Source of the DNA: Lepidurus packardi
Taxonomy: Eukaryota; Arthropoda; Branchiopoda; Notostraca; Triopsidae
Reading direction: 5' to 3'
Length of the DNA: 64,000 nt
NCBI GenBank assembly: GCA_023053545.1
Contig: JAKZAN010000002.1
Coordinates: 10,908,790 to 10,972,789 of the forward strand
Positions 3,272-59,537 of this stretch are shown in pieces. The notes under the pieces were generated by a model, which was given only the letters and a program-made list of their open reading frames with translations, was not told the DNA's origin and made no database searches. Positions within the stretch are counted from its first letter, which is position 1. The number at the start of each line of letters is the position of its first letter. Position numbers and translations under genes: made by a program.

Positions 3272-7165
<3,894 letters not shown>

Positions 7166-25653: not shown

Positions 25654-27352
25654 GGTGACCGCAAAGGAGAAAACGCCGCGTCAGCCCAACAAGGGGAAGC
25701 AATGCCGTTTCTGCGGGAATGAATTCCACGAAAAGCTCGAACTCTGCCCAGCACGTGGAAAACAGTGTAGGTCATGCGGAAAAAACAACCACTTCAGCCG
25801 GTGTTGTCTAAGCAAGAAAAACGAGCACGTTGATCAACATGGGAATAGTCGTCCTCAAAAGCAGCAAGTGCGGCAGATCGTCACCGAGGAGGGAACTTCC
25901 AGTGAAGAAGAATGCATTTGGTCGCTGAGAACACTGCCAGAAGATGGAACCATGGGCGAAGCAGAGCGCATTTTGCGCATTTTAACGTCCCACCCAAAGG
26001 ACCTAGAGATCGTAACAACGATTGGCACCACACAAGTGCGGATGTTGATTGACACCGGCACAACCGTTAACATCCTGGACAATGAAACGCATAAGCAATT
26101 GGGATCACCAGCCCTAACACCTGCAGACGTCAAGCTCTTTCCATGGGGAAGCCCCCACCTAAGCGTTGCAGGGGAGATTTACCAAAACATCACATCTAAC
26201 GGGATAACAATCCAGGCACGTTTCCTAGTACACCCAACAATCCCAGGCAACTTGTTGTCCTACAAGACAGCCAAAGCTTTACGTCTCATCGAAATAGTCA
26301 ACACGCTGGAGGAAGAAAGCACCGCAATTGATCTCTTGTCCCTCCAACAGCAATATCCAAACCTATTTGCCAAGTCTGGAAAATTGAAAGACACAACGAT
26401 CAAACTCCACGTAGACCCGAATGTGACGGCCAAAGCACAGCCACACCGTCGAGTTCCCGTCCATCTACGTCGACAGGTAGAAGAAGAGCTTGTGGAGATG
26501 GAGAAGCTTGGCATCATAGAAAAGGTCACCGGACCTACACCGTGGGTCTCACCGATAGTAGTCGTGCCAAAACCGAAAGCACCCGGTAAAATTCGTATAT
26601 GTGTAGACATGAGAGAAGCCAACAAAGCCGTAAAGAGAGAGCGCCATTTAACACCGACATTGGACGAAGTCTTGGCCGAGCTGGATGGAGCCATGGTATT
26701 TTCAGTACTGGATCTTAAGCATGGTTATCACCAGCTGGAACTGGCTGAGGAGAGTCGCTATATCACGACGTTCTCCACCCACTGCGGATTAAGGCGTTAC
26801 ACACGGCTATCGTTTGCAATCAACGCCGCGGCTGAAATATTTCAAGAAGCAATACGGCAAACATTGGCAGGACTTCCCGGACAGCTCAACATCAGCGACG
26901 ACATATTAGTCTTCGGGAGATCGGTAGAAGAACACAACAAGCGTCTTCATTACGTCTTTGACCGACTGAACAGCAGTGGCCTCTGTCTAAATTGGCAGAA
27001 ATCGAAGATCGGCCGCAATCAGGTCACATTTTTTGGATTTCAGTTCAGCCAGAACGGTATTAAGCCCGATCCTAAGAAAGTAGAAGCGTTGGTTAATACA
27101 ACAAATCCGTCCAACGAAGCAGAGCTTCGAAGCTTCTTAGGGATGACGAATTATCTTGCGCGTTTCATTCCGGGATATGCGACGATCACAGCGCCACTCA
27201 GAAGCCTGTTGAAGAAACAGACCAAGTACGACTGGACCGCCAATTGTGACATGGCTGTACAAAAGCTCAAGAGCATTCTTACAACCGACCCCCAAGTTGC
27301 TTTCTTTAATCCAAACTTGCCAACCACCATCATCACAGATGATGTTGTTTAG
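25607..27352 (+). pseudogene. pol: gypsy pol, truncated after reverse transcriptase
   Basis: A frame of 581 codons. Two cysteine knuckles come first (CRFC...C at residues about 33-47 and the CCHC knuckle CRSCGKNNHFSRC at about 54-66). The aspartic protease motif LIDTGTTVNIL is near residue 147. Reverse transcriptase follows, with the VLDLKHGYHQLEL motif and the active-site ISDDILVFG near residue 430. RNase H starts (TTIITD) but the frame is cut by the rearrangement at 27345 and ends by chance at 27352. The enzyme copies element RNA into DNA. This copy lacks RNase H and integrase and cannot be autonomous. Confidence 0.92.
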
Positions 27353-27640
27353 ATTCCTCATGAATCGTTCAACGTCGCCGTTAGCGGCGGGCCAGTATGG
27401 TGTTATACGGCGGTGTTCGACACCAATACGTTGAAGATACTGTTTTAGCTCTTCACTTTGGAACGGTGGTCCATTGTCTGAGGCGATAGTCGCTGGTATC
27501 CCAAAACGTGCGAATTTGGCATCTAGCACCTTGATGATGTCTTTGGCGCTGGTGTGTTCAAGAATCGCCACCTCTGGGAATCGGGAATACTTGTCGATTA
27601 TGACAAACGCTTTATCGCCGTTCGGCAGACTAAAAAGGCT
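27346..27640 (-). mobile_element. gypsy integrase fragment
   Basis: Minus-strand piece of the integrase core (FVIIDKYSRFPEVAILEHTS through ERFMRNLN), a duplicate of 29687-29974. On its left it joins the plus-strand pol after a few unmatched bases. On its right it joins a protease fragment inside codons for GSP/DSLFS. Both joins are internal to coding regions, so these are rearrangement breakpoints and not element ends. Confidence 0.88.
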
Positions 27641-27958
27641 ATCTGGTGATCCCAATTGCTTATGCGTTTCATTGTCCAGGATGTTAACGGTTGTGCCGGT
27701 GTCAATCAACATCCGTACTTGTGTGGTGCCAATCGTTGTTACGATCTCTAGGTCCTTTGGGTGGGACGTTAAAATGCGCTCTGCTTCGCCCATGGTTCCA
27801 TCTTCTGGCAGTGTTCTCAGCGACCAAATGCATTCTTCTTCACTGGAAGTTCCCTCCTCGGTGACGATCTGCCGCACTTGCTGCTTTTGAGGACGACTAT
27901 TCCCATGTTGATCAACGGGCTCGTTTTTCTTGCTTAGACAACACCGGCTGAAATGGTT
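27641..27958 (-). mobile_element. gypsy gag-knuckle/protease fragment
   Basis: Minus-strand fragment encoding NHFSRCCLSKKNEPVDQ through LIDTGTTVNILDNETHKQLG, i.e. the second zinc knuckle and the protease active site. On its right it joins virus-derived sequence. This is the left edge of the first tandem unit; the same start is at 35303 in the second unit. Confidence 0.88.
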
Positions 27959-28086
27959 ACCACGTTTTATCCAGCGAGGGGTTTCACTTATTGGCTCAGC
28001 AATCACCGCTTGCGGGACTAGGCGTAAATCCAATTAATTAAGTAAGGCACGGAATTAGTAGAGACCCATAGTACGAACGATCTTCA
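27959..28086 (-). other. virus-derived or unassigned segment after the P-like ORF
   Basis: About 128 bp between the P-like stop codon and the gypsy zinc knuckle. It has no match elsewhere in the window except the duplicate at 35621-35748. An open frame (DLRLVPQAVIAEPISETPRW) runs into the gypsy knuckle in frame. In a rhabdovirus genome the P gene is followed by M, so this may be the P/M junction region and M start. I see no conserved motif to prove that. Confidence 0.4.
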
Positions 28087-29205
28087 TTAAGAGGCCCAAA
28101 ATCTTATGTCTGATTCATCTCTGATTGCTGGCGTCTTCTTAGATCCAATCATAGTGATATTAGTCAGTGAACTTGTTGACTTAGCTGGATCAAGAAGAGA
28201 AGATGAAGACGAGTTAGTGTAGCTCTTAGGTCCACTCACAACTGATGTTGTTCCCTTAAACACAGACTTTTGATCTATTTGAGATATCAGGCTTATTTTT
28301 TCCATCATAGAACTTAATTGTTGATTGGTTCTTTTCATATCTCCATCCATCTGATCCACCAGTGATCTGATGCAACCAGTCGCTGATTGAATGTTGTGGT
28401 TGTGAACAGCTAAGTCTGCTTTCAAAGATTGGGTGAGCTTGTCTAGACTAGCTGTAGTTGTGGACAGTTTGTTTCCAATCTCGGTCAGTGCTGTTGCGGG
28501 TGATGGCCTAAATGTTGTGTAGGCAGAATAATCCTTTATTATCTCTTGCTTCCTCTTCACATCCACTTTACCACTTAAGATCATAGTTGATGCCCAATTG
28601 CAAGTAAGCAGAGTGATCAACTCTAAAGCATGAGATGAGTCGTTGTGGTTTAGTTTATGCCAGGGAAAATGAGATACCAGTAACCAATTAGGAGGATCAA
28701 TAAGATTATTCCATAAATCAGAGGCCCATATAGCCATAGTCTCAGCCATGTATTCCTGGTCGACTCCCTGAGAGTATAGGATCATTGGTTCGAGCTTGGC
28801 TTCAAGAGAATACGGAGGAATAATTGGTTGATCAGGTACCTCCTTGTCTTTATCTTCTGGTCTTTTAACTTTTGAGCCTCCTTTATAAGGAGTCTTAGAT
28901 GGTCGAGACTCTAGTAAATCTTCATTTAAGAAAGGAACCGACTTCTTGGAAGCTAATGTAGAAGGTCCATCAGATTTTAGCAGTGATAAAGAGGATTCCT
29001 CTCCACCTTCTAACACTGTTTTCTCCATCTGCCTTATTACTTGTTCTTTTTCTGCTTCAGATCCAGTTAGGACTGTGTCAAGGGATATTAGTTCTTCATT
29101 TTCTTGAATGTCAGGGGTATTCCTGTCCGCTTTCCTATTCGATTTGGCTCTGGTGTTCTTTCCTCCCGTTTTACCTTGGGCCGTTGGAGTTCTAGCTGTG
29201 GCCAT
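28087..29205 (-). CDS. endogenous viral P-like (phosphoprotein) ORF, copy 1
   Basis: An intact 372-codon ORF with a true ATG in good context and a TAA stop. The protein is hydrophilic, Ser/Thr/Lys/Glu-rich at the N-terminus (about 1-130) with predicted disorder. It has a more structured middle (about 130-220, with several Trp) and a heptad-like helix region (about 240-310), and it ends FWAS. This layout fits a mononegavirus phosphoprotein, the cofactor linking the L polymerase to the nucleocapsid. The call rests on layout and on the nearby L fragment, not on a diagnostic motif. It lies directly after the gypsy pol stop (29216) on the same strand. The second copy at 35749-36867 encodes the same protein. 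Unrelated host or transposon origin is possible but less likely. Confidence 0.55.
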   Translation of the reverse strand: MATARTPTAQGKTGGKNTRAKSNRKADRNTPDIQENEELISLDTVLTGSEAEKEQVIRQMEKTVLEGGEESSLSLLKSDGPSTLASKKSVPFLNEDLLESRPSKTPYKGGSKVKRPEDKDKEVPDQPIIPPYSLEAKLEPMILYSQGVDQEYMAETMAIWASDLWNNLIDPPNWLLVSHFPWHKLNHNDSSHALELITLLTCNWASTMILSGKVDVKRKQEIIKDYSAYTTFRPSPATALTEIGNKLSTTTASLDKLTQSLKADLAVHNHNIQSATGCIRSLVDQMDGDMKRTNQQLSSMMEKISLISQIDQKSVFKGTTSVVSGPKSYTNSSSSSLLDPAKSTSSLTNITMIGSKKTPAIRDESDIRFWAS

Positions 29206-29215
29206 GGTTGAAGGC

Positions 29216-30862
29216 TTAATCCTGAATTTGGCTCAAGAGACTTCCGGTAAATCTTTTGAATAAGCTGGCATTGCGCGTGACTTGTTCGCTTCCACGTTGG
29301 GCTGTGATCATCGTTCCTTTTGCTGCAATTACTGTGTAGGGTTTGGTGTTATATCCTGGCAGCATTTTGTTTGGGATAGCCCTTTGGTCTTTCAAGAGGA
29401 CTTTTTCCCCTACGATGAAGCTCTTCTGCCTGGCATGGTTATGCCGATCCGCATTGGCTTTCATTTTCTCTTTGGCTTTCCGGTCCTGGTTCTTCACTTC
29501 TTCCTTTCGGGGTTGCTGATGTGCATTGCTAAGCTGAGGGAGCTTGGTTTTCACCTGTCTTCCAAATAGTAGGCTAGCTGGGCTGTGCCCAGTCATCCGG
29601 TGAGGTGCTGAACGATAGGCTAGAAGGAAAGGTTGCAACTTCTCCTTCCAGTCCACGTTCTCCGCAACTGAGGATCTGACCAGTTTGTTTAGATTCCTCA
29701 TGAATCGTTCAACGTCGCCGTTAGCGGCGGGCCAGTATGGTGTTATACGGCGGTGTTCGACACCAATACGTTGAAGATACTGTTTTAGCTCTTCACTTTG
29801 GAACGGTGGTCCATTGTCTGAGGCGATAGTCGCTGGTATCCCAAAACGTGCGAATTTGGCATCTAGCACCTTGATGATGTCTTTGGCGCTGGTGTGTTCA
29901 AGAATCGCCACCTCTGGGAATCGGGAATACTTGTCGATTATGACAAACGCTTTATCGCCGTTCGGCAGACTAAAAGGTCCATACTGAGGTCCGTCCAGGG
30001 TTCATCAGGTAATGGTGTGGGGCATACTGGTTCTTTTGAGCGATCTTCAGTGCACATTTGGCACTCACGGCAGATTTCAATGATCGTTTCGACCATGCGG
30101 TCCATGCCGGGAAACCAGACATGTAGGCGCAGACGTTGCTTGGTTTTAGTCATGCCCATATGGCTTTCGTGTGCTATCTGAATGATGCGCTCTTGCTGCT
30201 CTTCTGGAATACAAATCTTGCGTCCTTTTAAAATTACGTTGTTGTCGGCGTCAAACGTTAACTCGTTTCTACGTTGAAAGTAAACTGCGTTACGTTTCTT
30301 GACAGGGCTCCAGTTCCCTGTGACGATAGCTCGCTTGACTAGCTGTAGTACTTCGTCTTGCTCCGTTGCTCTTGCTACCTCGGATAGCTTGAGGGCAGTG
30401 GGCAGGAGGCTCTGACTTAAGAGATTCACGAACGCATCAGCACAGGTGCTGGCTACCGCGTTCCGATCCGATGCTGTTGGTTGCCTTGACATGAAGTCGG
30501 CGGGGTTAGTGGCTCCAGCTATGTGTTGAATTGTCGCATTGTAAGGCAAAAGACGTAGCGCCCAGCGTTCAATACGCGCGTTCCCGCAGTTAAGAGATTT
30601 GCTGAATAAGCCTACCAGCGGCTTATGGTCTGTTCTAACCGTGATGGGTTTTCCGAAAACATACAAATGAAAGTGCTCACAGGCCCAGACGACTGCGAGG
30701 CCCTCCCTTTCCAACTGCGAATAACGCTGTTCCGTGGCCGTCAACGAGCGACTTGCATACGCCACGACCCTTTCCTTGCCATTTTCCTCTTGCAACAAGA
30801 TCGCTGCTACACCGACAGGGCTGGCATCTGTGATGATGGTGGTCGGCAAGTTTGGATTAAAG
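29216..30862 (-). pseudogene. pol: gypsy RNase H-integrase, frameshifted (unit 1)
   Basis: Minus-strand continuation of pol. RNase H (TTIITDASPVGVAAILLQEE, later YASRSL and TDHKPL) is followed by the integrase zinc region (HESHMG...CRECQMC), the catalytic core with Asp (DLSMDL), Asp (IASDNGPPFQ) and Glu (NGDVERFMR), and a basic C-terminal tail ending SQIQD. A missing A in an A-run near 29970, compared with the second unit, splits the frame into 29938-30909 and 29216-29911. The left end abuts the P-like ORF; the right end abuts the LTR fragment after TTAAAG. It is dead as an enzyme because of the shift. Confidence 0.92.
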
Positions 30863-30918
30863 TGTAAGAATGTGCTTTTATTCTTACAACTTATTTTTGA
30901 GTACCCCACCTATATTCT
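30863..30918 (+). repeat. 56-bp LTR start of the env-bearing element (unit 1)
   Basis: Identical to the first 56 bp of the complete LTR at 45456-45910. It begins TGTAAGAATG, directly after AAAG, and then switches to L-like viral sequence. It includes a perfect 9-bp inverted repeat (TGTAAGAAT/ATTCTTACA) with an 8-nt loop. Confidence 0.9.
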
Positions 30919-33900
30919 ACAAACTCCAAAGATGTTCTCGGAGTAAACAGACAATGTCTCGTAACATGTCAGGGTCTTTCACTTCCATATCCATCACTAT
31001 GAGATTCACATTCAATCCATTCTGGGAAGTCGTGTCCATTAAGTATTCCCAAGTAGCATTCAAGGACAAGTCTGAGGGGAATTTCCAGCAAGATTTGAAA
31101 TTGACACAACGAGATGCTACAGATCCCAAAGCAGTGATGGCAGAAGGGGGGTCCGGAGCTGATCCACGCAATGACACCTCGTTATAATCCAACAAGCTGT
31201 TGAAAATCCCTCTTGCACAAGGATATTCCCTTAAGAGACTACTCGTGATTCCTCCGGAACCATCTCCGAGCACCATGAAATCTGAACAGGATATATGGAA
31301 ATGTCTCAAAACGCTTCGAACTTTGTAATGAGAACCCGTTGCTAATTGTCCCAGCCTAAAACCAGATATAGTTGGATCCTGAATTCTAGAAGGAGGGGTT
31401 TTTATTTTGTCAGTTGACCCACAATTTGAAGAGAAGTGCATCCTCACAGAAGTTATCGGTCCTCCAATCTCATTACCCCATCTTAGATTTTTCTTCGTCT
31501 GATCCGAATGTTCCTGGATCGTAAACTTACAAGCATGTCGAATTTCTGCATCAACTGAAAACACCTTCTTAATCAGATGATTCAAACATGGAATGTCTTC
31601 GGTAGTATCCCTCAGTTGAGACAAGGTGTGTGCCAATTTTCTTAACCGATTTTTGTCTTTGGTGTCCCATTTGGAATGAGTCAAAGTCCACATCACAGTG
31701 GAACTAATGACCATAGGTCCTATCACTGAGGCAGACATCATATCCGCAAACAAAAAGATTCTGGAATCTTCTGGTTCATACGTCTGAGTCATAAACAGAT
31801 TACGGAAAGTTGTCCAAAGATAACTCCTCAACAACAACCCAATATCTCGATCAGAGACTGGATAAGATGCCGGGACCTTGTGAGGAAAAGACAACAACTC
31901 TTGGTGAAGATTTCCCTCCCTAGTCAAATTTCTTAAATTCACACTGTTTGACATAAGATCAATCAGGTGTAGCACTGTTCCAAAAACTGCTTGTTCAGGG
32001 TGTGTCAACTTTTGGATGGCTCTACGATGTAACAAATCCAAAGAAGCTGCTCTCAACAACCCATCCAACAAACCTCGGAAAAATGGTGTAGGTACTAGTT
32101 TACGTTTGATGGTCAAAGGAAACAAAGATGAATCATCTTTGTGAGAATTGGAAATACATGTCAGATCCCCAAACATAAACCCGATAGAACGACCAACATG
32201 AAAACTTTGTTTCCACTTACCGGTTTCCTCCCATCTTCCTTCCGGTATCTCAATGGTCGTTCGGTTCTTTCCCCATGGATCATCTGAACCTCTCCATTTG
32301 TTCAGTGCTTCTGCTCTATCAGCAAACTCGTAAACCCAATCGGACTCCAGTGTCGGCTCCTCAATTTTACGGATACAATCTTTACAACCCAAATGCAAAT
32401 GATAAACCGCCCCCTCACCTTGTCCATCATGCAGTTCTCCGACGGTGGTTTGTCCGTAAATTAAAAGGGATTGAAACATGAAATCATAATTTTCACTCCC
32501 TAATGTCTCCATCGTGTCGGTTGTCCCAATCATTCTTGTCAACTTTGCGGGACTTTGAGCAGAATAACCACCAGCACTAACCCTAGAACAGGAAAATCTA
32601 TGCAAAGCAGACCCTGTTCTCTTAAACCCCTGAGAACCCAATGACCAATCCTCCCCAGTCTGTGACTCAATATTCTTAAGAATAGACTTAGCCAAATTAG
32701 AGCCTGGGGCAACAAACCAAGAGATGGCATCTCTTAACTTAGCAGCTCTCTTAATCAAGGGGATAGTCGCTTGCTTTTCCCATGGTTGAAGGATGCTTGT
32801 TGACTCTGATGTTTTAGAACCAAGATATGCTTGTTGTTTCCCTCTAGAGTCCAAATAGTTTCGTAATCCATTTGGTAACGTGATCGTCAAATAACAATCA
32901 GGGTTCTCACCATGACAATCAGTGCACTGATGATTGACATTTTGTCCTCTGCTCAATAACTCCAACGGGTGAGGAACTGTGGTTCCCAAAACTTTAGATC
33001 CCCACGACTCCGTCCTCAACTCGTCTGCTCTGGTTGATGAACAATCCCAAATAGTGCCAAGTCGCTTACGTGTACCATACCTACTCATTTGTACCAAGGT
33101 GCTAATTTCCCCTCTGATAATCTTATCGTCCAACTCCCTTTTGAACCAAGGACTGAAGTAATTCCTGATGGTTCGAGAATTTTGGAAAAGAGAAATTAAA
33201 GAATCAGTCAAACCCAAAAATGTTGCACTTTTAAATTCACTCAAGAAACGGGGAAAGAGTGGTTTAATATTCGATAAGAAAAGTAGCATTCTCTCTTCTT
33301 CTTCTTTGGAATATAACACCGAATCCTGAATTTGCACATTCTGGATTGCATGAGCATTCCTGTAAAGTCCCTTCTTCACTTCTTCTTTTAGAATTGTCAT
33401 GGCACTTATCCCTTTCGGGATGTTCAGAGAATTCGGATTTTCCAACAATCGGGAGATCTCTGTCCCATTCTGTTGTTTGATCTGGGGAGATCCAGCCTCA
33501 ATGCACAAATTTTTCAACCATTGGACTGAAGTATTGTTGTAAACCAACTTCCAGAAAGACAAACTCTCAGTCACTGGATCCGGAAATGCCCGAATCACAA
33601 ATCGAGACAGAGATGTACCTGACACTCCGCCCAGAGACGGATCTAGGTACAAACATGCTGCAACATACCCTGGACTCCGAGCATTAAACTTGGGATCCTT
33701 AATCAATTCATTCACGGACCCCCTAATTGCAGGATTGTGTAAATCCAACAATTCTTTAGCAAGCAGACCAAAAAACAAATAGTTTCGAATTGGATCAATT
33801 GGAGATGTCCCAAAATGAGAAACTGTCAATGCGTTGGTCGAGACTGATGACAACACGTTTGCAAAAGTAGGCAATTGATCATTTGTTACGCAAGTAACCC

Positions 33901-34054
33901 GAGACCAACGTTTAGTCTCCAATCCCCTGATATTACCCCTGAATATAGGAATTTTCCCATAATTTAGGTAATCCGCTGATCGAACAGTCTCATCTTGATT
34001 GATGATTAATCCCAATTTTGCTGTCCCTGCCTCTATAGCACCCAAGAACCTCTA
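30917..34054 (-). CDS. endogenous viral L-polymerase fragment, copy 1
   Basis: An uninterrupted frame of about 1,042 codons from a mononegavirus L protein, closest in character to Rhabdoviridae. The first listed codon is TTG; an in-frame TAG precedes it by two codons, so no native start is present. The fragment begins just downstream of where the catalytic motif C of the polymerase would lie, so the RNA-synthesis active site is absent. Visible parts are the end of the polymerase domain, the capping domain with PSLGGVSG (about 136-143), GTTVPHPLE (about 353-361), YLGSKTSES (about 407-415) and the His-Arg motif in GSALHRFS (about 477-484), then a connector. The methyltransferase SAM-binding motif VLGDGSGG is at about 925, and the methyltransferase is cut soon after VMDMEV. 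No stop or frameshift was seen. It cannot encode a working polymerase. Confidence 0.9.
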
Positions 34055-34058
34055 TAAA

Positions 34059-34082
34059 CCCAATCTGTGATTATGCATCTGT
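34059..34082. other. breakpoint with duplicated filler
   Basis: After the L fragment the sequence reads ATCTGTGATTATGC then CATCTGTGATTATGG, i.e. a near-perfect direct repeat of about 14 bp, before continuing as gypsy pol. The repeated bases are themselves gypsy RNase H start sequence. This looks like templated filler at a repaired break. Confidence 0.75.
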
Positions 34083-35620
34083 GATTATGGTGGTCGGCAA
34101 GTTTGGATTAAAGAAAGCAACTTGGGGGTCGGTTGTAAGAATGCTCTTGAGCTTTTGTACAGCCATGTCACAATTGGGGGTCCAGTCGTACTTGGTCTGT
34201 TTCTTCAACAGGCTTCTGAGTGGCGCTGTGATCGTCGCATATCCCGGAATGAAACGCGCAAGATAATTCGTCATCCCTAAGAAGCTTCGAAGCTCTGCTT
34301 CGTTGGACGGATTTGTTGTATTAACCAACGCTTCTACTTTCTTAGGATCGGGCTTAATACCGTTCTGGCTGAACTGAAATCCAAAAAACGTGACCTGATT
34401 GCGGCCGATCTTCGATTTCTGCCAATTTAGACAGAGGCCACTGCTGTTCAGTCGGTCAAAGACGTAATGAAGACGCTTGTTGTGTTCTTCTACCGATCTC
34501 CCGAAGACTAATATGTCGTCGCTGATGTTGAGCTGTCCGGGAAGTCCTGCCAATGTTTGCCGTATTGCTTCTTGAATATTTCAGCCGCGGCGTTGATTCC
34601 AAACGATAGCCGTGTGTAACGCCTTAATCCGCAGTGGGTGTAGAACGTCGTGATATAGCGACTCTCCTCAGCCAGTTCCAGCTGGTGATAACCATGCTTA
34701 AGATCCAGTACTGAAAATACCATGGCTCCATCCAGCTCGGCCAAGACTTCGTCCAATGTTGGTGTTAAATGGCGCTCTCTCTTTACGGCTTTGTTGGCTT
34801 CTCTCATGTCTACACATATACGAATTTTACCGGGTGCTTTCGGTTTTGGCACGACTACTATCGGTGAGACCCACGGTGTAGGTCCGGTGACCTTTTCTAT
34901 GATGCCAAGCTTCTCCATCTCCACAAGCTCTTCTTCTACCTGTCGACGTAGATGGACGGGAACTCGACGGTGTGGTTGTGCTTTGGCCGTCACATTCGGG
35001 TCTACGTGGAGTTTGATCGTTGTGTCTTTCAATTTTCCAGACTTGGCAAATAGGTTTGGATATTGCTGTTGGAGGGACAAGAGATCAATTGCGGTGCTTT
35101 CTTCCTCCAGCGTGTTGACTATTTCGATGAGACGTAAAGCTTTGGCTGTCTTGTAGGACAACAAGTTGCCTGGGATTGTTGGGTGTACTAGGAAACGTGC
35201 CTGGATTGTTATCCCGTTAGATGTGATGTTTTGGTAAATCTCCCCTGCAACGCTTAGGTGGGGGCTTCCCCATGGAAAGAGCTTGACGTCTGCAGGTGTT
35301 AGGGCTGGTGATCCCAATTGCTTATGCGTTTCATTGTCCAGGATGTTAACGGTTGTGCCGGTGTCAATCAACATCCGTACTTGTGTGGTGCCAATCGTTG
35401 TTACGATCTCTAGGTCCTTTGGGTGGGACGTTAAAATGCGCTCTGCTTCGCCCATGGTTCCATTTTCTGGCAGTGTTCTCATCGACCAAATGCATTCTTC
35501 TTCACTGGAAGTTCCCTCCTCGGTGACGATCTGCCGCACTTGCTGCTTTTGAGGACGACTATTCCCATGTTGATCAACGGGCTCGTTTTTCTTGCTTAGA
35601 CAACACCGGCTGAAATGGTT
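34070..35620 (-). pseudogene. pol: gypsy gag-knuckle to reverse transcriptase fragment
   Basis: Minus-strand pol from the zinc knuckle (NHFSRCCLSKKNEPVDQ) through protease and reverse transcriptase to TTIITDA. A one-base deletion in an A-run near 34575 shifts the RT frame (35695-34508 then 34553-34071). The stretch GGATTAAAGAAAGC (about 34105-34118) is uninterrupted here, so this segment carries the empty target site of the env-bearing element. On the right it joins the virus-derived segment at 35620/35621. Confidence 0.92.
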
Positions 35621-35748
35621 ACCACGTTTTATCCAGCGAGGGGTTTCACTTATTGGCTCAGCAATCACCGCTTGCGGGACTAGGCGTAAATCCAATTAAT
35701 TAAGTAAGGCACGGAATTAGTAGAGACCCATAGTACGAACGATCTTCA
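35621..35748 (-). other. virus-derived or unassigned segment after the P-like ORF (unit 2)
   Basis: Same as 27959-28086, with the same fusion to the gypsy knuckle. Confidence 0.4.
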
Positions 35749-36867
35749 TTAAGAGGCCCAAAATCTTATGTCTGATTCATCTCTGATTGCTGGCGTCTTC
35801 TTAGATCCAATCATAGTGATATTAGTCAGTGAACTTGTTGACTTAGCTGGATCAAGAAGAGAAGATGAAGACGAGTTAGTGTAGCTCTTAGGTCCACTCA
35901 CAACTGATGTTGTTCCCTTAAACACAGACTTTTGATCTATTTGAGATATCAGGCTTATTTTTTCCATCATAGAACTTAATTGTTGATTGGTTCTTTTCAT
36001 ATCTCCATCCATCTGATCCACCAGTGATCTGATGCAACCAGTCGCTGATTGAATGTTGTGGTTGTGAACAGCTAAGTCTGCTTTCAAAGATTGGGTGAGC
36101 TTGTCTAGACTAGCTGTAGTTGTGGACAGTTTGTTTCCAATCTCGGTCAGTGCTGTTGCGGGTGATGGCCTAAATGTTGTGTAGGCAGAATAATCCTTTA
36201 TTATCTCTTGCTTCCTCTTCACATCCACTTTACCACTTAAGATCATAGTTGATGCCCAATTGCAAGTAAGCAGAGTGATCAACTCTAAAGCATGAGATGA
36301 GTCGTTGTGGTTTAGTTTATGCCAGGGAAAATGAGATACCAGTAACCAATTAGGAGGATCAATAAGATTATTCCATAAATCAGAGGCCCATATAGCCATA
36401 GTCTCAGCCATGTATTCCTGGTCGACTCCCTGAGAGTATAGGATCATTGGTTCGAGCTTGGCTTCAAGAGAATACGGAGGAATAATTGGTTGATCAGGTA
36501 CCTCCTTGTCTTTATCTTCTGGTCTTTTAACTTTTGAGCCTCCTTTATAAGGAGTCTTAGATGGTCGAGACTCTAGTAAATCTTCATTTAAGAAAGGAAC
36601 CGACTTCTTGGAAGCTAATGTAGAAGGTCCATCAGATTTTAGCAGTGATAAAGAGGATTCCTCTCCACCTTCTAACACTGTTTTCTCCATCTGCCTTATT
36701 ACTTGTTCTTTTTCTGCTTCAGATCCAGTTAGGACTGTGTCAAGGGATATTAGTTCTTCATTTTCTTGAATGTCAGGGGTATTCCTGTCCGCTTTCCTAT
36801 TCGATTTGGCTCTGGTGTTCTTTCCTCCCGTTTTACCTTGGGCCGTTGGAGTTCTAGCTGTGGCCAT
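35749..36867 (-). CDS. endogenous viral P-like ORF, copy 2
   Basis: 372 codons, identical in protein sequence to 28087-29205, with the same ATG and stop. It sits between the end of gypsy pol (36878) and the gypsy zinc-knuckle fragment, all on the minus strand. If the gypsy promoter still acts, it would be transcribed in sense as part of a gypsy transcript. The same reservations on assignment apply as for copy 1. Confidence 0.55.
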   Translation of the reverse strand: MATARTPTAQGKTGGKNTRAKSNRKADRNTPDIQENEELISLDTVLTGSEAEKEQVIRQMEKTVLEGGEESSLSLLKSDGPSTLASKKSVPFLNEDLLESRPSKTPYKGGSKVKRPEDKDKEVPDQPIIPPYSLEAKLEPMILYSQGVDQEYMAETMAIWASDLWNNLIDPPNWLLVSHFPWHKLNHNDSSHALELITLLTCNWASTMILSGKVDVKRKQEIIKDYSAYTTFRPSPATALTEIGNKLSTTTASLDKLTQSLKADLAVHNHNIQSATGCIRSLVDQMDGDMKRTNQQLSSMMEKISLISQIDQKSVFKGTTSVVSGPKSYTNSSSSSLLDPAKSTSSLTNITMIGSKKTPAIRDESDIRFWAS

Positions 36868-36877
36868 GGTTGAAGGC

Positions 36878-38525
36878 TTAATCCTGAATTTGGCTCAAGA
36901 GACTTCCGGTAAATCTTTTGAATAAGCTGGCATTGCGCGTGACTTGTTCGCTTCCACGTTGGGCTGTGATCATCGTTCCTTTTGCTGCAATTACTGTGTA
37001 GGGTTTGGTGTTATATCCTGGCAGCATTTTGTTTGGGATAGCCCTTTGGTCTTTCAAGAGGACTTTTTCCCCTACGATGAAGCTCTTCTGCCTGGCATGG
37101 TTATGCCGATCCGCATTGGCTTTCATTTTCTCTTTGGCTTTCCGGTCCTGGTTCTTCACTTCTTCCTTTCGGGGTTGCTGATGTGCATTGCTAAGCTGAG
37201 GGTGCTTGGTTTTCACCTGTCTTCCAAATAGTAGGCTAGCTGGGCTGTGCCCAGTCATCCGGTGAGGTGCTGAACGATAGGCTAGAAGGAAAGGTTGCAA
37301 CTTCTCCTTCCAGTCCACGTTCTCCGCAACTGAGGATCTGACCAGTTTGTTTAGATTCCTCATGAATCGTTCAACGTCGCCGTTAGCGGCGGGCCAGTAT
37401 GGTGTTATACGGCGGTGTTCGACACCAATACGTTGAAGATACTGTTTTAGCTCTTCACTTTGGAACGGTGGTCCATTGTCTGAGGCGATAGTCGCTGGTA
37501 TCACAAAACGTGCGAATTTGGCATCTAGCACCTTGATGATGTCTTTGGCGCTGGTGTGTTCAAGAATCGCCACCTCTGGGAATCGGGAATACTTGTCGAT
37601 TATGACAAACGCTTTATCGCCGTTCGGCAGACTAAAAAGGTCCATACTGAGGTCCGTCCAGGGTTCATCAGGTAATGGTGTGGGGCATACTGGTTCTTTT
37701 GAGCGATCTTCAGTGCACATTTGGCACTCACGGCAGATTTCAATGATCGTTTCGACCATGCGGTCCATGCCGGGAAACCAGACATGTAGGCGCAGACGTT
37801 GCTTGGTTTTAGTCATGCCCATATGGCTTTCGTGTGCTATCTGAATGATGCGCTCTTGCTGCTCTTCTGGAATACAAATCTTGCGTCCTTTTAAAATTAC
37901 GTTGTTGTCGGCGTCAAACGTTAACTCGTTTCTACGTTGAAAGTAAACTGCGTTACGTTTCTTGACAGGGCTCCAGTTCCCTGTGACGATAGCTCGCTTG
38001 ACTAGCTGTAGTACTTCGTCTTGCTCCGTTGCTCTTGCTACCTCGGATAGCTTGAGGGCAGTGGGCAGGAGGCTCTGACTTAAGAGATTCACGAACGCAT
38101 CAGCACAGGTGCTGGCTACCGCGTTCCGATCCGATGCTGTTGGTTGCCTTGACATGAAGTCGGCGGGGTTAGTGGCTCCAGCTATGTGTTGAATTGTCGC
38201 ATTGTAAGGCAAAAGACGTAGCGCCCAGCGTTCAATACGCGCGTTCCCGCAGTTAAGAGATTTGCTGAATAAGCCTACCAGCGGCTTATGGTCTGTTCTA
38301 ACCGTGATGGGTTTTCCGAAAACATACAAATGAAAGTGCTCACAGGCCCAGACGACTGCGAGGCCCTCCCTTTCCAACTGCGAATAACGCTGTTCCGTGG
38401 CCGTCAACGAGCGACTTGCATACGCCACGACCCTTTCCTTGCCATTTTCCTCTTGCAACAAGATCGCTGCTACACCGACAGGGCTGGCATCTGTGATGAT
38501 GGTGGTCGGCAAGTTTGGATTAAAG
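36878..38525 (-). CDS. pol: gypsy RNase H-integrase, intact frame (unit 2)
   Basis: The frame (38572-36878, 564 codons) is intact here, unlike in unit 1. RNase H is at about residues 18-130, the integrase zinc-binding region (HESHMG...CRECQMC) at about 245-285, and the catalytic core with Asp in DLSMDLFSL, Asp in ASDNGPPF and Glu in DVERFMRNL at about 305-435. The basic tail ends SQIQD. The first 15 or so codons are contributed by the LTR fragment of the inserted element and are not part of pol. Upstream pol lies beyond the inserted element (45911-46080 and 57800-58685), so no whole Pol can be made. Confidence 0.9.
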
Positions 38526-38581
38526 TGTAAGAATGTGCTTTTATTCTTACAACTTATTTTTGAGTACCCCACCTATATTCT
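38526..38581 (+). repeat. 56-bp LTR start of the env-bearing element (unit 2)
   Basis: First 56 bp of the 455-bp LTR, preceded by the target duplication AAAG (38522-38525). It is joined at about 38581/38582 to the downstream end of the L fragment. It supplies part of the TAG that ends the L frame. Confidence 0.92.
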
Positions 38582-41500
38582 ACAAACTCCAAAGATGTTC
38601 TCGGAGTAAACAGACAATGTCTCGTAACATGTCAGGGTCTTTCACTTCCATATCCATCACTATGAGATTCACATTCAATCCATTCTGGGAAGTCGTGTCC
38701 ATTAAGTATTCCCAAGTAGCATTCAAGGACAAGTCTGAGGGGAATTTCCAGCAAGATTTGAAATTGACACAACGAGATGCTACAGATCCCAAAGCAGTGA
38801 TGGCAGAAGGGGGGTCCGGAGCTGATCCACGCAATGACACCTCGTTATAATCCAACAAGCTGTTGAAAATCCCTCTTGCACAAGGATATTCCCTTAAGAG
38901 ACTACTCGTGATTCCTCCGGAACCATCTCCGAGCACCATGAAATCTGAACAGGATATATGGAAATGTCTCAAAATGCTTCGAACTTTGTAATGAGAACCC
39001 GTTGCTAATTGTCCCAGCCTAAAACCAGATATAGTTGGATCCTGAATTCTAGAAGGAGGGGTTTTTATTTTGTCAGTTGACCCACAATTTGAAGAGAAGT
39101 GCATCCTCACAGAAGTTATCGGTCCTCCAATCTCATTACCCCATCTTAGATTTTTCTTCGTCTGATCCGAATGTTCCTGGATCGTAAACTTACAAGCATG
39201 TCGAATTTCTGCATCAACTGAAAACACCTTCTTAATCAGATGATTCAAACATGGAATGTCTTCGGTAGTATCCCTCAGTTGAGACAAGGTGTGTGCCAAT
39301 TTTCTTAACCGATTTTTGTCTTTGGTGTCCCATTTGGAATGAGTCAAAGTCCACATCACAGTGGAACTAATGACCATAGGTCCTATCACTGAGGCAGACA
39401 TCATATCCGCAAACAAAAAGATTCTGGAATCTTCTGGTTCATACGTCTGAGTCATAAACAGATTACGGAAAGTTGTCCAAAGATAACTCCTCAACAACAA
39501 CCCAATATCTCGATCAGAGACTGGATAAGATGCCGGGACCTTGTGAGGAAAAGACAACAACTCTTGGTGAAGATTTCCCTCCCTAGTCAAATTTCTTAAA
39601 TTCACACTGTTTGACATAAGATCAATCAGGTGTAGCACTGTTCCAAAAACTGCTTGTTCAGGGTGTGTCAACTTTTGGATGGCTCTACGATGTAACAAAT
39701 CCAAAGAAGCTGCTCTCAACAACCCATCCAACAAACCTCGGAAAAATGGTGTAGGTACTAGTTTACGTTTGATGGTCAAAGGAAACAAAGATGAATCATC
39801 TTTGTGAGAATTGGAAATACATGTCAGATCCCCAAACATAAACCCGATAGAACGACCAACATGAAAACTTTGTTTCCACTTACCGGTTTCCTCCCATCTT
39901 CCTTCCGGTATCTCAATGGTCGTTCGGTTCTTTCCCCATGGATCATCTGAACCTCTCCATTTGTTCAGTGCTTCTGCTCTATCAGCAAACTCGTAAACCC
40001 AATCGGACTCCAGTGTCGGCTCCTCAATTTTACGGATACAATCTTTACAACCCAAATGCAAATGATAAACCGCCCCCTCACCTTGTCCATCATGCAGTTC
40101 TCCGACGGTGGTTTGTCCGTAAATTAAAAGGGATTGAAACATGAAATCATAATTTTCACTCCCTAATGTCTCCATCGTGTCGGTTGTCCCAATCATTCTT
40201 GTCAACTTTGCGGGACTTTGAGCAGAATAACCACCAGCACTAACCCTAGAACAGGAAAATCTATGCAAAGCAGACCCTGTTCTCTTAAACCCCTGAGAAC
40301 CCAATGACCAATCCTCCCCAGTCTGTGACTCAATATTCTTAAGAATAGACTTAGCCAAATTAGAGCCTGGGGCAACAAACCAAGAGATGGCATCTTTTAA
40401 CTTAGCAGCTCTCTTAATCAAGGGGATAGTCGCTTGCTTTTCCCATGGTTGAAGGATGCTTGTTGACTCTGATGTTTTAGAACCAAGATATGCTTGTTGT
40501 TTCCCTCTGGAGTCCAAATAGTTTCGTAATCCATTTGGTAACGTGATCGTCAAATAACAATCAGGGTTCTCACCATGACAATCAGTGCACTGATGATTGA
40601 CATTTTGTCCTCTGCTCAATAACTCCAACGGGTGAGGAACTGTGGTTCCCAAAACTTTAGATCCCCACGACTCCGTCCTCAACTCGTCTGCTCTGGTTGA
40701 TGAACAATCCCAAATAGTGCCAAGTCGCTTACGTGTACCATACCTACTCATTTGTACCAAGGTGCTAATTTCCCCTCTGATAATCTTATCGTCCAACTCC
40801 CTTTTGAACCAAGGACTGAAGTAATTCCTGATGGTTCGAGAATTTTGGAAAAGAGAAATTAAAGAATCAGTCAAACCCAAAAATGTTGCACTTTTAAATT
40901 CACTCAAGAAACGGGGAAAGAGTGGTTTAATATTCGATAAGAAAAGTAGCATTCTCTCTTCTTCTTCTTTGGAATATAACACCGAATCCTGAATTTGCAC
41001 ATTCTGGATTGCATGAGCATTCCTGTAAAGTCCCTTCTTCACTTCTTCTTTTAGAATTGTCATGGCACTTATCCCTTTCGGGATGTTCAGAGAATTCGGA
41101 TTTTCCAACAATCGGGAGATCTCTGTCCCATTCTGTTGTTTGATCTGGGGAGATCCAGCCTCAATGCACAAATTTTTCAACCATTGGACTGAAGTATTGT
41201 TGTAAACCAACTTCCAGAAAGACAAACTCTCAGTCACTGGATCCGGAAATGCCCGAATCACAAATCGAGACAGAGATGTACCTGACACTCCGCCCAGAGA
41301 CGGATCTAGGTACAAACATGCTGCAACATACCCTGGACTCCGAGCATTAAACTTGGGATCCTTAATCAATTCATTCACGGACCCCCTAATTGCAGGATTG
41401 TGTAAATCCAACAATTCTTTAGCAAGCAGACCAAAAAACAAATAGTTTCGAATTGGATCAATTGGAGATGTCCCAAAATGAGAAACTGTCAATGCGTTGG

Positions 41501-41717
41501 TCGAGACTGATGACAACACGTTTGCAAAAGTAGGCAATTGATCATTTGTTACGCAAGTAACCCGAGACCAACGTTTAGTCTCCAATCCCCTGATATTACC
41601 CCTGAATATAGGAATTTTCCCATAATTTAGGTAATCCGCTGATTGAACAGTCTCATCTTGATTGATGATTAATCCCAATTTTGCTGTCCCTGCCTCTATA
41701 GCACCCAAGAACCTCTA
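38580..41717 (-). CDS. endogenous viral L-polymerase fragment, copy 2
   Basis: Same fragment and limits as 30917-34054 and also uninterrupted for about 1,042 codons. Against copy 1 I see three residue differences (Arg/Gln near 23, Arg/Lys near 440, Val/Ile near 905). It contains the capping-domain His-Arg motif and most of the methyltransferase but not the polymerase catalytic motifs. It lies antisense within the env-bearing retroelement, between its LTR start and its integrase. Confidence 0.9.
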
Positions 41718-41726
41718 TAAACCCAA

Positions 41727-43303
41727 GACGCGAAAACCGTTGCTCGCATTTTCGTAGAAAAAATTATCTGTCGCCATGGTGTACCTATGGAGCTACTGTC
41801 TGATAGAGGAACAAACTTCCTATCAAGTCTAGTTAAAGAGGTCTGCACCTTTTTCAATATCACCAAAACCAACACTACCGCCTACAACCCTAAATGTAAT
41901 GGTATGGTAGAACGACACCATCGCGTTTTAATGGATGGATTAGCCAAAATGTGCGACGGAAACCAACGGTCTTGGGACGAACGATTAGACTATGTTTTGT
42001 TCGCGTACAGAACATCCGTGCACGCTAGCACAAACGAAACCCCCTTCTTCCTCATGCACGGAAGAGACCCCATTCTCGACGTAAATCCTATTTTAATCCC
42101 CCCCCCCGGAAGAATTACGCCATCGACGACGACTATAAAGCAGAAATGGTCCAACGCCTACACAATGCTTTCTCTTATGTCCAAACGCAGCTGATCTCTG
42201 CTCATGAGACGCAAAAAAAGACTTACGATCGACGCGTCAAATCCCAAACCTTCCATGTCGGTGACAAAGTGTTAAAATTAAATACCGCTTTGAAAATCGG
42301 AGAGTCCCCCAAATTAACGATGAATTCTTGGTTGGGCCCCTATCGAATTATCAAACAGACGGGAGATGAAATTTTCGTGATACAAGACATCAAAACCAAA
42401 ACCGAAGAGAACGTTAACGTAAATAGATTAAAACATTACGTGGAAAGATTCTTCTCGGGAGATGCCCCAATTACCGAATCCATAATTGGACAAATGGAAG
42501 ACCCCAAGGGAGCGGAATCCCCAAAACCCAAGAAACCCCCAACCACAGAAAAACTCGAAGAACAAACGGATAAACTCCTCGATCAGATCGATCAATTACT
42601 AAAATCCGCCGCAGAATTAACACCCCCCACCGTTGAAATCTATGTACCCCCACCCCCGGCCCTTAACTTTCCTACTCCCCATCCCAACACCACCCCCTCC
42701 CGACCATTGACGCCACCTCCCGTCTTCCAAAACTTGTCCCCCGCTCCAGCCAGCCCGGAAAATTCCTCGGACTCCTCAGATTACTTAAACTTCTCGATGC
42801 CCGAATCTAGGCCTACCAGCCCTACTTCTTCACCTTTTCCCGCCTTGACAGATGAGCAAACCTGGTCCACCCATCGAAGTCCAGCTCTCGACCCAAATTC
42901 TTCTACGAGTACTCCCTCCTCCCCTGATGTTTCCACCCCTTATCAAAGTGATCTCCAACCCCCATCTAATTTCATTGTTTCTGATGATTCCTTCCCGACT
43001 TACAACTTTCCTCATGCTTTCCGACCCCGAACCGTTAGTACACCTGCGGAAATTTATGCCCCCCATTCTTCTTCCTCCGAGCCCATGTCACTCCCCACAG
43101 AAGTATTAACACGCTCCCGTTCCATAAGTGACCCACCCTTACCAGTAGTGCAACCTCGATTATTGTTTCCACCCATAGATAACCGCCCAACCCTAACCAC
43201 CCGCTCGGGAAGAGTCGTAAAGCCCCCGTACGTTTCTCTGAAGACGTACAGTATTTTAAATGAGGATCGATTTCCCACCAGTAAAATTATCACCCACCTG
43301 TAG
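41727..43303 (+). pseudogene. pol: integrase end of the env-bearing element, with Pro/Ser-rich tail
   Basis: A gypsy-type integrase core starting inside the domain (DAKTVARIFVEKIICRHGVP), with the second catalytic Asp in LLSDRGTNFL and the Glu in NGMVERHHRV. The first Asp is lost at the junction with L. The frame shifts at a run of C near 42098-42108: 41727-42194 carries the core, and 42146-43303 carries the C-terminal region with VGDKVLKLN and the LGPY motif. About 270 residues rich in Pro, Ser and Thr follow, an unusual extension. It differs clearly from the other gypsy family in this window. Confidence 0.85.
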
Positions 43304-43305
43304 AA

Positions 43306-45172
43306 GGTTGCCGTTTGCTCATCCTCTTCAAAAAATCCCTTCTAGGACCGATAGCATTTTGGATATGCGTCTTTCTTGTCATGGTTGGACCAGTCAGCCC
43401 AGAGTTGGAATCCCACCGTATAACCCTGGGAAGTATCTTCAAATACGAAGATCAATTAACCCTCACCAATTCGAAGTGGACCATAGTCTCCGATATAGAT
43501 CTTACGCCTTATGACATCATTATGGAAAATTTGGCACAATATCTAAGAAACTTCCGTCCCATAGACACCCACATCGAAACCAAAGTCACGGAATTCCAAA
43601 ACTTCTTGGTCTTAGTTAACCTTACCATCAACCGAGAAAATCGCCTATTTACGAAAGATTTCAACGAGATAAAAATCAAACTAGAAAATATCCGACGTAT
43701 AACAACCCTCAATGACCGGACCAAAGGTTTTGTACTCATCCCTGGCGGAAGTACGATACTACACTTCCTTTTCGGTACCGCGGGTGACGGAGATATCGAC
43801 CAAATTAATAGCCGAATCGATAGTATGACCAAACAGACAAGCAGCATTGCTCATGTGCAAGAATTACAAGCCTCCCTGATTCAAACCACACATGATGACA
43901 TCCTACGCAATCGTGGAACGCTCCATAACCTAACCCAAGCGATTAGCCTAGTCGGACAAACCATAGATAATATTCGATCCAATCTACAAACCCATCAACA
44001 TAATTCCGATCAAATATTAGGCGAGCTGCTAGGAATTACTTCAGCTACGGCAGAAATACAGACGAACCTACGGTTGACCAATAATTTATTACAATACCTA
44101 AATGATGACCTCACTCTAATCTCAATTGGACGTATTCCCAAACATCTCCTACCCCCAACGAGGATCGTTCCTGTACTTCGAGAGATTGAAGGACGATTGC
44201 CAACTGGTTGGACCATCATGACCAACTCGAAAACAAAAAATTTCTGGGAACTGTACACCTCCGTCAACGTCAAAGCAGCGTCCCTCAACCATGGTTTACG
44301 TCTGTTCATCGAAATCCTTATCTCCCCCCAACAAAATGATTTCGAATTGTACCATTTCTCGCCTTTCCCTACTCCTGTTCCGGATACTGACATGTACGCC
44401 TTGACACAAATTGATCACCCTTACTTGGCTATCTCCGCGGATCGAAAAAACTTTATCGAACTACGTCAGGATGATTTAAAAAACTGCCTTCAATTGGATA
44501 AGCGCTGGTGCTTAACACAAAACCCTATAGTCCGGCATAACACCGCTACCTCTTGCCCGATATCCCTTTACTTGGATGATAAAGCAAGAATCAACAATGA
44601 ATGCGACACGAAAATTATTCGTCGGAGCCGAATTACCTTACTTCCGGTAGGAGAGGGTAAGTGGTTGTATTCATCGCCCGTATCTACAAAAATTTCTCTT
44701 CTGTGCCCGCATGTTTCACTAATCTCGAGTCTTAGAAAAGCGGACTGAAATACTGGGAGTAGGATTTTTAGTGTTGCCGCCGAAGTGTACTTTGCAGGCG
44801 CCTACGTTTTCGATTCCAGCCACTTACTCCGAATATACCAACGTGCGATCGCAAACCTACGAACTGAATTTGATGCCTTTGACTCCCTACTTCGGGAACG
44901 CCACGCTGAGTCCATTTGAGCCTCGTCAGTTACCCAAGATTAAGGAACTTTTGGCTGATCTCAACGCCACTGATGATTGGGAGATCTCTGTTGCCAAAAT
45001 GAAGGAAGCTGTCGCCCAACAGAAGTTACTATTCTTGGACGAAAATTCCGAAATTCAACACCATGTTTCTGCCCGACTCAACATCTACCTCGCGGCCGGG
45101 GTAGTTTTCTTTATCGTGCAGATCGCCTTGTTCGCCTTTGGTGCATACAAACTATGGAGTTACTTCAGCTAA
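43306..45172 (+). pseudogene. env: errantivirus-type envelope (env) gene, frameshifted
   Basis: Follows pol. A splice acceptor (CCACCTGTAG) lies just before the frame and there is no ATG at its start (first listed codon TTG), which fits a spliced env message. The N-terminus is hydrophobic (IAFWICVFLVMVGPVSP), consistent with a signal peptide. A central segment around residues 140-160 with a Gly-rich LFGTAGDGDI-type motif, followed by a long heptad region, resembles the F-type fusion proteins shared by errantiviruses and baculoviruses. The first frame ends at 44748; the rest lies in another frame (to 45172) and ends in a transmembrane helix (IYLAAGVVFFIVQIALFAFG) and a short tail. The F-type assignment is by architecture. 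The frameshift near 44730-44770 breaks this copy. Confidence 0.75.
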
Positions 45173-45391
45173 CGAAACGACTTAGTCCAGACCGACCAGC
45201 AACGGGATCTGAACCAACGAACTGCCGACCTTCTAGAAGCCCAGAAGAACTTAATCCAGGAGCTGAATGCCCTAAAGAGTCGGAATTTAGAGCTGGATCT
45301 AGAGGTCGGAAGACTAACCACCATCATGAAGCTGGAGTCCGAAGTAGTTAAAGATCGACTACTAGCCTTTGAACAGAAATTGTTTAAATAG
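45173..45391 (+). other. in-frame coiled-coil extension after the env stop
   Basis: After the TAA at 45170-45172 the same frame stays open for 72 codons to a TAG at 45389-45391. The content is strongly helix-forming with Leu at heptad spacing (for example LLEAQKNLIQELNALK). The only ATG is internal. It could be a former cytoplasmic tail cut by a stop mutation, a readthrough product, or a separate small ORF. Confidence 0.5.
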
Positions 45392-45455
45392 TTTGGCTGT
45401 TTTCGTGGTTCTTTTCTTTTACTCCGGGACGTAGTTTTTCCAATGGGGGAAGTGA

Positions 45456-45910
45456 TGTAAGAATGTGCTTTTATTCTTACAACTTATTTTTGAGTACCCC
45501 ACCTATATTCTCCCGTAAACACTAGATGTCGCCCTCCACATGCATGAAGCCATGCATGTGTCTGATTAGTCCGCTATTGCCCAATACTGTGAATCCCCTT
45601 ATTATGTACGAACCGCCCACACCAATGAAGTAATAGCTCAGCTTACTAGTTAATTGTTTTCCTGGTGGCTTTCATTTTATCAATCAGGGCAGTCAGAAGT
45701 TGCCTTTAGTAGGGGTCGGTATTCGCCTTTGGTGGAAAGTTGGTGCTCGCTTTTAGCAGAGGGTGTTAGAGTGTGTATGTACAAAATACATCCGTGAACC
45801 AGAGTCTAAGTCCTTTTTCGGACTCTAACTTTACTCCGTGAGTCCTGATAACCACAGCCTCTCCTTCCGCCACAAAGAACCTACTATAATTTGTAAGACA
45901 CTTTCTTACA
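45456..45910 (+). repeat. complete 3' LTR of the env-bearing element
   Basis: 455 bp, from TGTAAGAATG to CTTTCTTACA, with short inverted ends TGTAAG/CTTACA. A purine-rich tract (GGGGGAAGTGA) lies just before it, as expected for plus-strand priming. It is followed by the target duplication AAAG and gypsy pol sequence. Confidence 0.88.
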
Positions 45911-46080
45911 AAAGAAAGCAACTTGGGGGTCGGTTGTAAGAATGCTCTTGAGCTTTTGTACAGCCATGTCACAATTGGGGGTCCAGTCGTACTTGGTCTG
46001 TTTCTTCAACAGGCTTCTGAGTGGCGCTGTGATCGTCGCATATCCCGGAATGAAACGCGCAAGATAATTCGTCATCCCTA
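45911..46080 (-). mobile_element. gypsy reverse transcriptase/RNase H linker fragment
   Basis: 170 bp of minus-strand pol (GMTNYLARFIPGYATITAPL through TDPQVAFF). It is bounded on the left by the env-bearing element and on the right by the DNA transposon, and it continues at 57800. Confidence 0.92.
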
Positions 46081-58685: not shown

Positions 58686-59435
58686 CCCGTTCAAAAAGTG
58701 TATATAGGACATTTCCGCGTATGCAATGCACCCCGTCAAACGGAAACTAGAATACTTGACACTTGAAGCCAATCGACCGTAAAAACAATGGACAAGACTT
58801 TCACTATTACCAGCCCGTTAGACACGCTCGAGTCGAGACTCGAAAACTCTTTTTCAAAGAAAAAACTTGGGTTCGCCTTCGCCCAAGGCCCATTTTCTCC
58901 TGAAAAACACAACCCTTTATACCTACTAGATTTCCTTGTGAAGCAAAAAATTTACGAAATAAAAATAATATGAATAATATTTAAGAAAAATGTGAAAGAG
59001 CTTCACGCAGAAAGTATACCATGGACCGGAAAAGTCAGGCCGTAACAATTACTTATAGGTATGCAACACACAAATGCAGGTTCCCACCGTTCTAAAATGG
59101 CATAACTACTATAATTTAAATTGTTCCACTCCTCCTAACGTTGACAACGCTTTTACAGTATTCTACTTCCCTCCAAGTTCGCCTTCCATGGACTAATTTG
59201 GTTAATTGCTCACCTTCTTGTCAACAACCCATGGAAAATCTCTCTATTTAACGTATCAGTAAGCTCGAATTACACGGCAACTGCTGAGGAGGTGAAAAAG
59301 GGGGAAAGTACTTGAGTATTTCTACGCATTTCCATGGTTCCTATGAAACTAATAAAAAAATCTGTTCCGCGTAATTAACCCTTTGCATACCTTGGTTTCT
59401 CAAAACTGTCACGGGCACACGACAATGTTAAACTG

Positions 59436-59444
59436 TATATAAAG
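59436..59444 (+). promoter_or_regulatory. TATA box, second copy
   Basis: TATATAAAG, the same as 18948-18956. Confidence 0.65.
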
Positions 59445-59537
59445 GGCAGTCAGAACAGCCAACAGTATCAATTCGTTAACCTACAATCGTTCAAGCAACT
59501 TCCAGCTCACAGCAGTGAATTTTAATCCACAATTAAC

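Follow-up and report, generated by a model that had tools for sequence, protein, structure and literature searches.

In Aedes, endogenous RNA-virus sequences (NIRVS/EVEs) are enriched near Ty3/gypsy elements, and one bunyavirus piece is embedded within a full-length Pao-Bel element (PMC5497376). The same report also describes partial rhabdovirus genes amid gypsy-type elements and instances of duplication, both of which recur at the locus analyzed here. Rhabdovirus EVEs have been reported from Sf cells (PMC5803895), as has a rhabdovirus N gene EVE from Culicoides stellifer (PMC11907880); like our case, these are rhabdovirus gene pieces in animal genomes, whereas the available portions of the two accounts describe no retroelement with a replaced interior. 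In the recombination of LCMV with IAP (Geuking et al. 2009, reported via PMC3205384; the reference is also listed in PMC2987831), an LTR retroelement and a non-retroviral RNA virus were likewise joined in DNA, and the event was, according to the secondary source, seen in infected cells and mice, whereas ours is a genome-assembly copy whose joints favour DNA end joining. RNA-virus EVEs in a 2010 survey are said to span single transcripts, consistent with an mRNA template (PMC2987831). On the repair side, templated insertions have been called a smoking gun for polymerase theta, and end joining is reported to act also on LTR-element DNA outside the chromosome (PMC12426944). Short templated insertions and microhomology of the kind associated there with polymerase theta and microhomology-mediated end joining occur at the joints of this patchwork locus, although the DNA captured here differs in including viral cDNA, and the polymerase is here putative.

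How cDNA of RNA viruses that have no DNA stage enters germ-line chromosomes has mostly been inferred from neighbourhood, that is, from EVEs lying near LTR elements. Viral fragments among LTR elements are thus already known, and it is the joint record that is unusually clear here: unlike in the Aedes NIRVS, the viral piece takes the place of an element's interior while the outer edges and the target duplication are preserved, and the two inner joints are readable. Among the titles and abstract openings listed in searches of the open-licence literature, we found no description of an LTR element that keeps its outer edges intact while a rhabdovirus piece replaces its interior. The same viral end, moreover, is joined to two different partners, and because of this and the readable joints, template switching and DNA end joining can be compared at a single locus.

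The window, a 64-kb stretch of the Lepidurus packardi genome (contig C2:10908790-10972789), was drawn from an assembly of 108.6 Mb in 344 contigs. It contains a chimera (38526-45910, plus strand) of an env-bearing gypsy-type LTR element, here called X, nested in another gypsy-type element, gypsyA, in the order of 56 LTR bases (LTR56), antisense L, X integrase, env and a complete LTR. The chimera is real and is known from the assembly alone, in which the viral gene piece has a chromosomal setting, with gypsyA flanks on the 13.5-Mb contig C2. The features are, in window coordinates:

30863-30918, plus strand: second copy of LTR56
30919-34063, minus strand: second copy of L including its end (same base as 41726)
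34064-34075: TCTGTGATTATG, a 12-nt copy of 34078-34089, where the L end meets gypsyA
34075-35620, minus strand: gypsyA from gag zinc finger to RNase H, ending at element position 1539
35305-41726: right-hand member of the 6.4-kb duplication, paired with 27643-34063 on the left
35693-36903, minus strand: insert interrupting gypsyA, whose 372-aa ORF (35749-36867) is perhaps rhabdovirus P; also present at 28031-29241
36904-38525, minus strand: gypsyA from RNase H to integrase end (G1501-3147)
38522-38525, plus strand: left target-site duplication AAAG in gypsyA (site uninterrupted in genome copy L005 and at window ~34105-34120)
38526-38581, plus strand: first 56 bp of the X LTR (LTR56, the U3 tip) with the private variant TTACAA, from LTR comparison
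38582-~41710, minus strand: rhabdovirus L fragment, antisense to X, from the ORF list, Pfam and structure matches
41710-41718: joint filler; CCTCTATA (41712-41719) repeats 41693-41700
41719-45455, plus strand: X integrase, beginning past its first catalytic Asp, followed by env (Baculo_F), with apparently interrupted frames
45456-45906, plus strand: complete 3' LTR of X, TGTAAG...CTTACA (TG...CA)
45907-45910, plus strand: right target-site duplication AAAG
45911-46080, minus strand: gypsyA beyond the X insertion (G1504-1335)

Much of this anatomy had been reported in a preliminary description of the locus, and it held. The start of an LTR was said to be joined to the end of L, and the 56 bp at 38526-38581 are identical to the beginning of the LTR at 45456 (56/56 bases). 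The other end of L was said to be joined to integrase after its first catalytic Asp, and X integrase homology indeed begins at 41719; four other X loci (L013, L015, L017 and L018) read ...TTTCCCTATGC|AAACCCAAGACGCG at the corresponding position and encode just upstream of the cut what we take to be a VDHFSKW-type stretch, which places the cut after that Asp. Integrase, a Baculo_F env and a complete TG...CA LTR follow, as had been stated. So do the AAAG flanks around a site that is uninterrupted elsewhere: the empty site is present in gypsyA at ~34105 and also, inverted, at ~27310. Compared with the X copy on contig C5, in which the LTR begins at 11431795 and the base equivalent to 41719 is 11437095, the chimera lacks ~5.24 kb of X and carries ~3.14 kb in place of the missing stretch.

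X appears to be an errantivirus-like Ty3/gypsy element by its LTR, target duplication, env and integrase. A TG...CA LTR with a 4-bp target duplication is as in errantivirus-like Ty3/gypsy elements, the env matches Baculo_F (E 5e-16), and env and integrase match PF12259 and PF22938; a protein search with the env yielded one weak relative. The 4-bp duplications were AAAG here, AAGA on contig C86 and GCAG at a single LTR on C3; the C5 copy has none, and a duplication was present in two of the three other copies with both edges read. Eight other X loci were read out, four at the integrase joint and four, on the opposite strand, at the far end. LTR56 and the chimera's own 3' LTR carry TTACAA, whereas TCCCG stands there in every one of the 10 other loci read, which represent 8 distinct LTRs; a perfect match to the 56 bases was found only in three window copies among the 40 scored of 49 candidates. 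Because the two share this private U3 variant, both outer edges most likely derive from one X insertion and one reverse transcription. Together with the LTR tip, the TTACAA variant (38526-38581 and 45456-45511) forms a perfect inverted repeat, as though a hairpin had been copied. On the ORF list, the integrase and env frames of the chimeric X appear to shift or stop at 42100-42194 and 44740-44775; the first of these lies near a run of C, where a sequencing error is possible. Elsewhere on C2, a tandem array (C2:786495-795570; period ~1.76 kb) has units containing ~156 bp of X-type LTR.

The sequence at 38582-41710 is, by its predicted protein, a piece of a VSV-like rhabdovirus L gene. Its frame is open for 1,042 codons and contains PF00946, PF14318, PF21080 and PF14314, with the polymerase (RdRp), capping and two methyltransferase domains standing in L order, and the best matches among solved structures were to VSV L, at residues 748-1280 (655 bits) and 1293-1772 (415 bits). 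The gene is incomplete; the match runs from VSV residue 748 to near 1772 of 2109, with an upper limit extrapolated to approximately residue 1790. IMG/VR scans with half of L and with the N sequence described below retrieved no relative, and no match to a rhabdovirus glycoprotein was found in the genome, nor did the control genomes give one. The preliminary description had proposed a search for further chimeric copies at different target sites, and none was found: at the DNA level L had two matches in the assembly, both within the window.

The second of these matches, which the preliminary description omits, is the LTR56 and L at 30863-34063. Self-comparison of the window revealed a 6.4-kb tandem duplication (27643-34063 = 35305-41726) that is 99.86% identical, and a single-copy reading of the chimera was dropped. 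The two copies, spaced 7,663 bp apart as taken within L, differ by 8 substitutions and one gap spread along their length, and each contains gypsyA, the insert with the 372-aa ORF, LTR56 and L. On the right, the duplication stops at the L end, which lies at the L/integrase joint; the partner of this end is X integrase in copy 2 and gypsyA, at element position 1539, in copy 1. LTR56 and L with the same L end thus occur without X integrase in copy 1, an arrangement that a later rearrangement could also yield. The pieces, their joints, the duplication and the common L end are all read directly in the assembled sequence. A second recurrence lies in gypsyA itself: at window positions 27341 and 34075, two pieces ~1.5% apart in sequence and joined to different partners are broken, to within 1 nt, at the same element position (1538/1539). 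The window holds two further repeats: a 5.3-kb duplication (18193-23511 = 58683-64000; 99.4% identical), the right copy of which adjoins a gypsyA fragment (57800-58685), and a tandem repeat at 4914-5327 with a period of ~50 bp (self-matches at offsets of 100, 150, 200 and more).

Both right-hand joints carry microhomology or locally templated insertions, as in the products of microhomology-mediated end joining. At the L/integrase joint, the 8-nt CCTCTATA copies 41693-41700 and is found in copy 1 too, and L end and X integrase meet across 8 shared bases, AAACCCAA. The identity of the two copies past L consists of AAACCCAA only, which is common to X integrase. One reading of the L end, CCTCTATAAACCCAA, is that it nearly repeats CCTCTATAGCACCCAA, a stretch of L 19 bases upstream; since AAACCCAA is readable in this way, copy 1 need hold no X sequence. 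When flanks were letter-shuffled, the 11-nt filler was matched in 0 of 20,000 trials (the test of the 12-nt repeat used 11 of its 12 repeated bases) and the 8-nt filler at a rate of 0.0013. Unassigned bases were present at other joints of the locus, 3 at 27342-27344, 4 at 27639-27642 and 11 at 27959-27969, the last of which recur at 35621-35631. The LTR56/L joint showed no filler and no testable microhomology.

The second insert, at 35693-36903, splits gypsyA at element positions 3147/3192. It matched only its two window copies (10 candidates, all scored), and its flanks match other places. In a CpG scan of the 64 kb (629 segments of 1,116 bp; median ratio 0.92), ratios of 0.60 or below were confined to this insert with its edges, L and a proline-rich repeat gene at 13-15.5 kb. 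The 372-aa ORF had no Pfam match above cut-off, a homologue search gave 2,890 candidates with none at E 0.001 or better, and a single-sequence structure model was poor (pLDDT 49.6), with one long helix. Its codon-usage distance to L was 0.199 and 0.221, compared with 0.161 to a LINE frame, 0.167 to the gag of element Y (below), 0.105 between the halves of L, and 0.136-0.144 between N and L. The ORF is perhaps P-like, a putative label given by place and CpG content only.

We propose, with modest confidence, that L was probably stitched in by end-joining repair after X had integrated, rather than copied in as part of one chimeric element. X would have integrated intact into a gypsyA copy, which would have produced AAAG on both sides, and a later break within X would have been closed by DNA end joining of the microhomology type, with capture of a reverse-transcribed stretch of rhabdovirus L. 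One L end would have been joined to base 56 of the left LTR, and the other would have remained free long enough for two joinings, one to broken gypsyA ~7.7 kb upstream, yielding the tandem duplication, and one to the right half of X across the common AAACCCAA. The order of these events, the free end and a retroelement reverse transcriptase as the maker of the viral cDNA are what we infer from the arrangement. We favour repair because the same L end (34063 = 41726) meets two different partners, because both right-hand joints carry short repeats copied from adjoining sequence, and because a second unique, CpG-poor insert sits in gypsyA of the same duplicated unit; we also count for it that L has no DNA match outside the window and that unassigned bases stand at other joints of the locus. 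The gypsyA break recurring within 1 nt is a second coincidence, which repair does not explain and which warns against over-trusting the argument from the L end, and the codon usage of the second insert, nearer to the LINE frame and Y gag than to L, also counts against it. So do the LTR56/L joint, which lacks both filler and testable microhomology, and the fact that microhomology and slip-back repeats can arise in reverse transcription too.

The preliminary description had read the chimera as a one-piece product of template switching. As far as anatomy, target duplication and the derivation of both outer edges from a single element go, that reading holds up, whereas the joints favour repair after integration. 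In its fuller form, minus-strand synthesis on X RNA would have switched from integrase onto negative-sense rhabdovirus RNA and then onto plus-strand strong-stop DNA at U3 base 56, running off at the correct tip, and X integrase would have inserted the chimera as one piece; the tandem duplication would have come later, broken near the inner joint by chance. This sequence of events is possible but rather unlikely in our assessment. It fits the two outer edges and the AAAG pair, both intact, the private variant common to LTR56 and the 3' LTR, the TCTTGGGT that L and integrase appear to share near their joint, and the retroelement-virus recombination reported for LCMV and IAP (Geuking et al. 2009, via PMC3205384). 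The outer edges and target duplication do not separate the two routes, however, since they are expected from a chimera integrated whole and from repair within the provirus alike. Against template switching, the L end recurs at a different partner, no sibling stands at another target site, and the second insert in the neighbouring element is left unexplained; antisense L would also require a genomic viral RNA template, whereas the EVEs of the 2010 survey are reported to fit viral mRNA (PMC2987831). A chimera-first order further needs a later break within 8 bp of the inner joint, approximately 0.1% of the 7.4-kb element, whereas an L end left free after joining to LTR56 would meet both partners without such a coincidence; the argument is post hoc. 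If the X-L chimera was nevertheless built by reverse transcription, the locus would be a full joint record of a retroelement capturing an RNA-virus gene in the germ line.

Since LTR-element DNA outside the chromosome is also a substrate of end joining, the joints by themselves do not tell whether the event was chromosomal. A possible alternative is that X integrase inserted a product formed beforehand, outside the chromosome, by end joining of X cDNA with viral cDNA, two steps that templated joints and a clean duplication would fit, and in flies factors of microhomology-mediated end joining are reported to be necessary for circularisation of LTR-element DNA (PMC12426944); the common L end in copy 1 would again be left to chance, and we regard this order as unlikely. 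We hold an assembly artefact at one or more joints to be slightly less probable still. The locus is repeat-rich, with near-identical stretches that include 18193-23511 and 58683-64000, and the evidence comes from the assembly alone; yet 8 base differences and one gap spread along 6.4 kb set the two copies apart, both of which hold the LTR56/L joint, and short templated fillers and an exact AAAG pair would be untypical of misjoins.

Because two more LTR elements of this genome carry inserts, one of rhabdovirus N and one virus-like, the question of how viral cDNA reaches the chromosome is a general one. The genome contains 17 matches to rhabdovirus N (PF00945). On contig C3, an N frame open for 438 codons lies between the gag-protease and the LTR of an LTR element, Y, in sense to it (C3:2832403-2834329, L062 4404-6330 and onward). 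Among the 40 of 133 candidates that were scored, the Y sequence flanking N, of which 369 bp is LTR, had many copies, and the 1,558 bp between the flanks had no other match. Corresponding points in six other Y copies (three on C1, two on C4 and one on C16) lie 5.86-6.04 kb apart, indicating that the N insert replaced ~6 kb of Y, in which pol would be expected. The left LTR of the N-bearing Y is cut to 92 bp, and the bases to either side of the LTR beside N do not match each other. Where the insert borders gag-protease, a short tandem repeat is present. It is conceivable, though we consider it rather unlikely, that rhabdovirus genes were captured more than once by this animal's LTR retroelements (X taking up L, gypsyA a P-like gene and Y the N gene) and that the X-L chimera at least may have been built during reverse transcription, by a switch from viral genomic RNA to plus-strand strong-stop DNA, with X integrase then inserting it.

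Other viral pieces are scattered through the assembly. An 856-aa open frame on C4 (C4:2576486-2579056, L035 1487-4057) matches the Mononegavirales capping domain at 38.8 bits, over cut-off. As a candidate second X chimera it was rejected: the surrounding 20 kb match the window only in an X-type LTR ~2.7 kb away, and the frame is apparently from a different virus. At C2:856625-870837 (L059 and L060), nine main N matches that are ~99% alike form a tandem array spaced at ~1.65 kb, some of them with long open frames, and a decayed N with stops on C6 (C6:277615-278501, L063) has ~71% DNA identity to this array.
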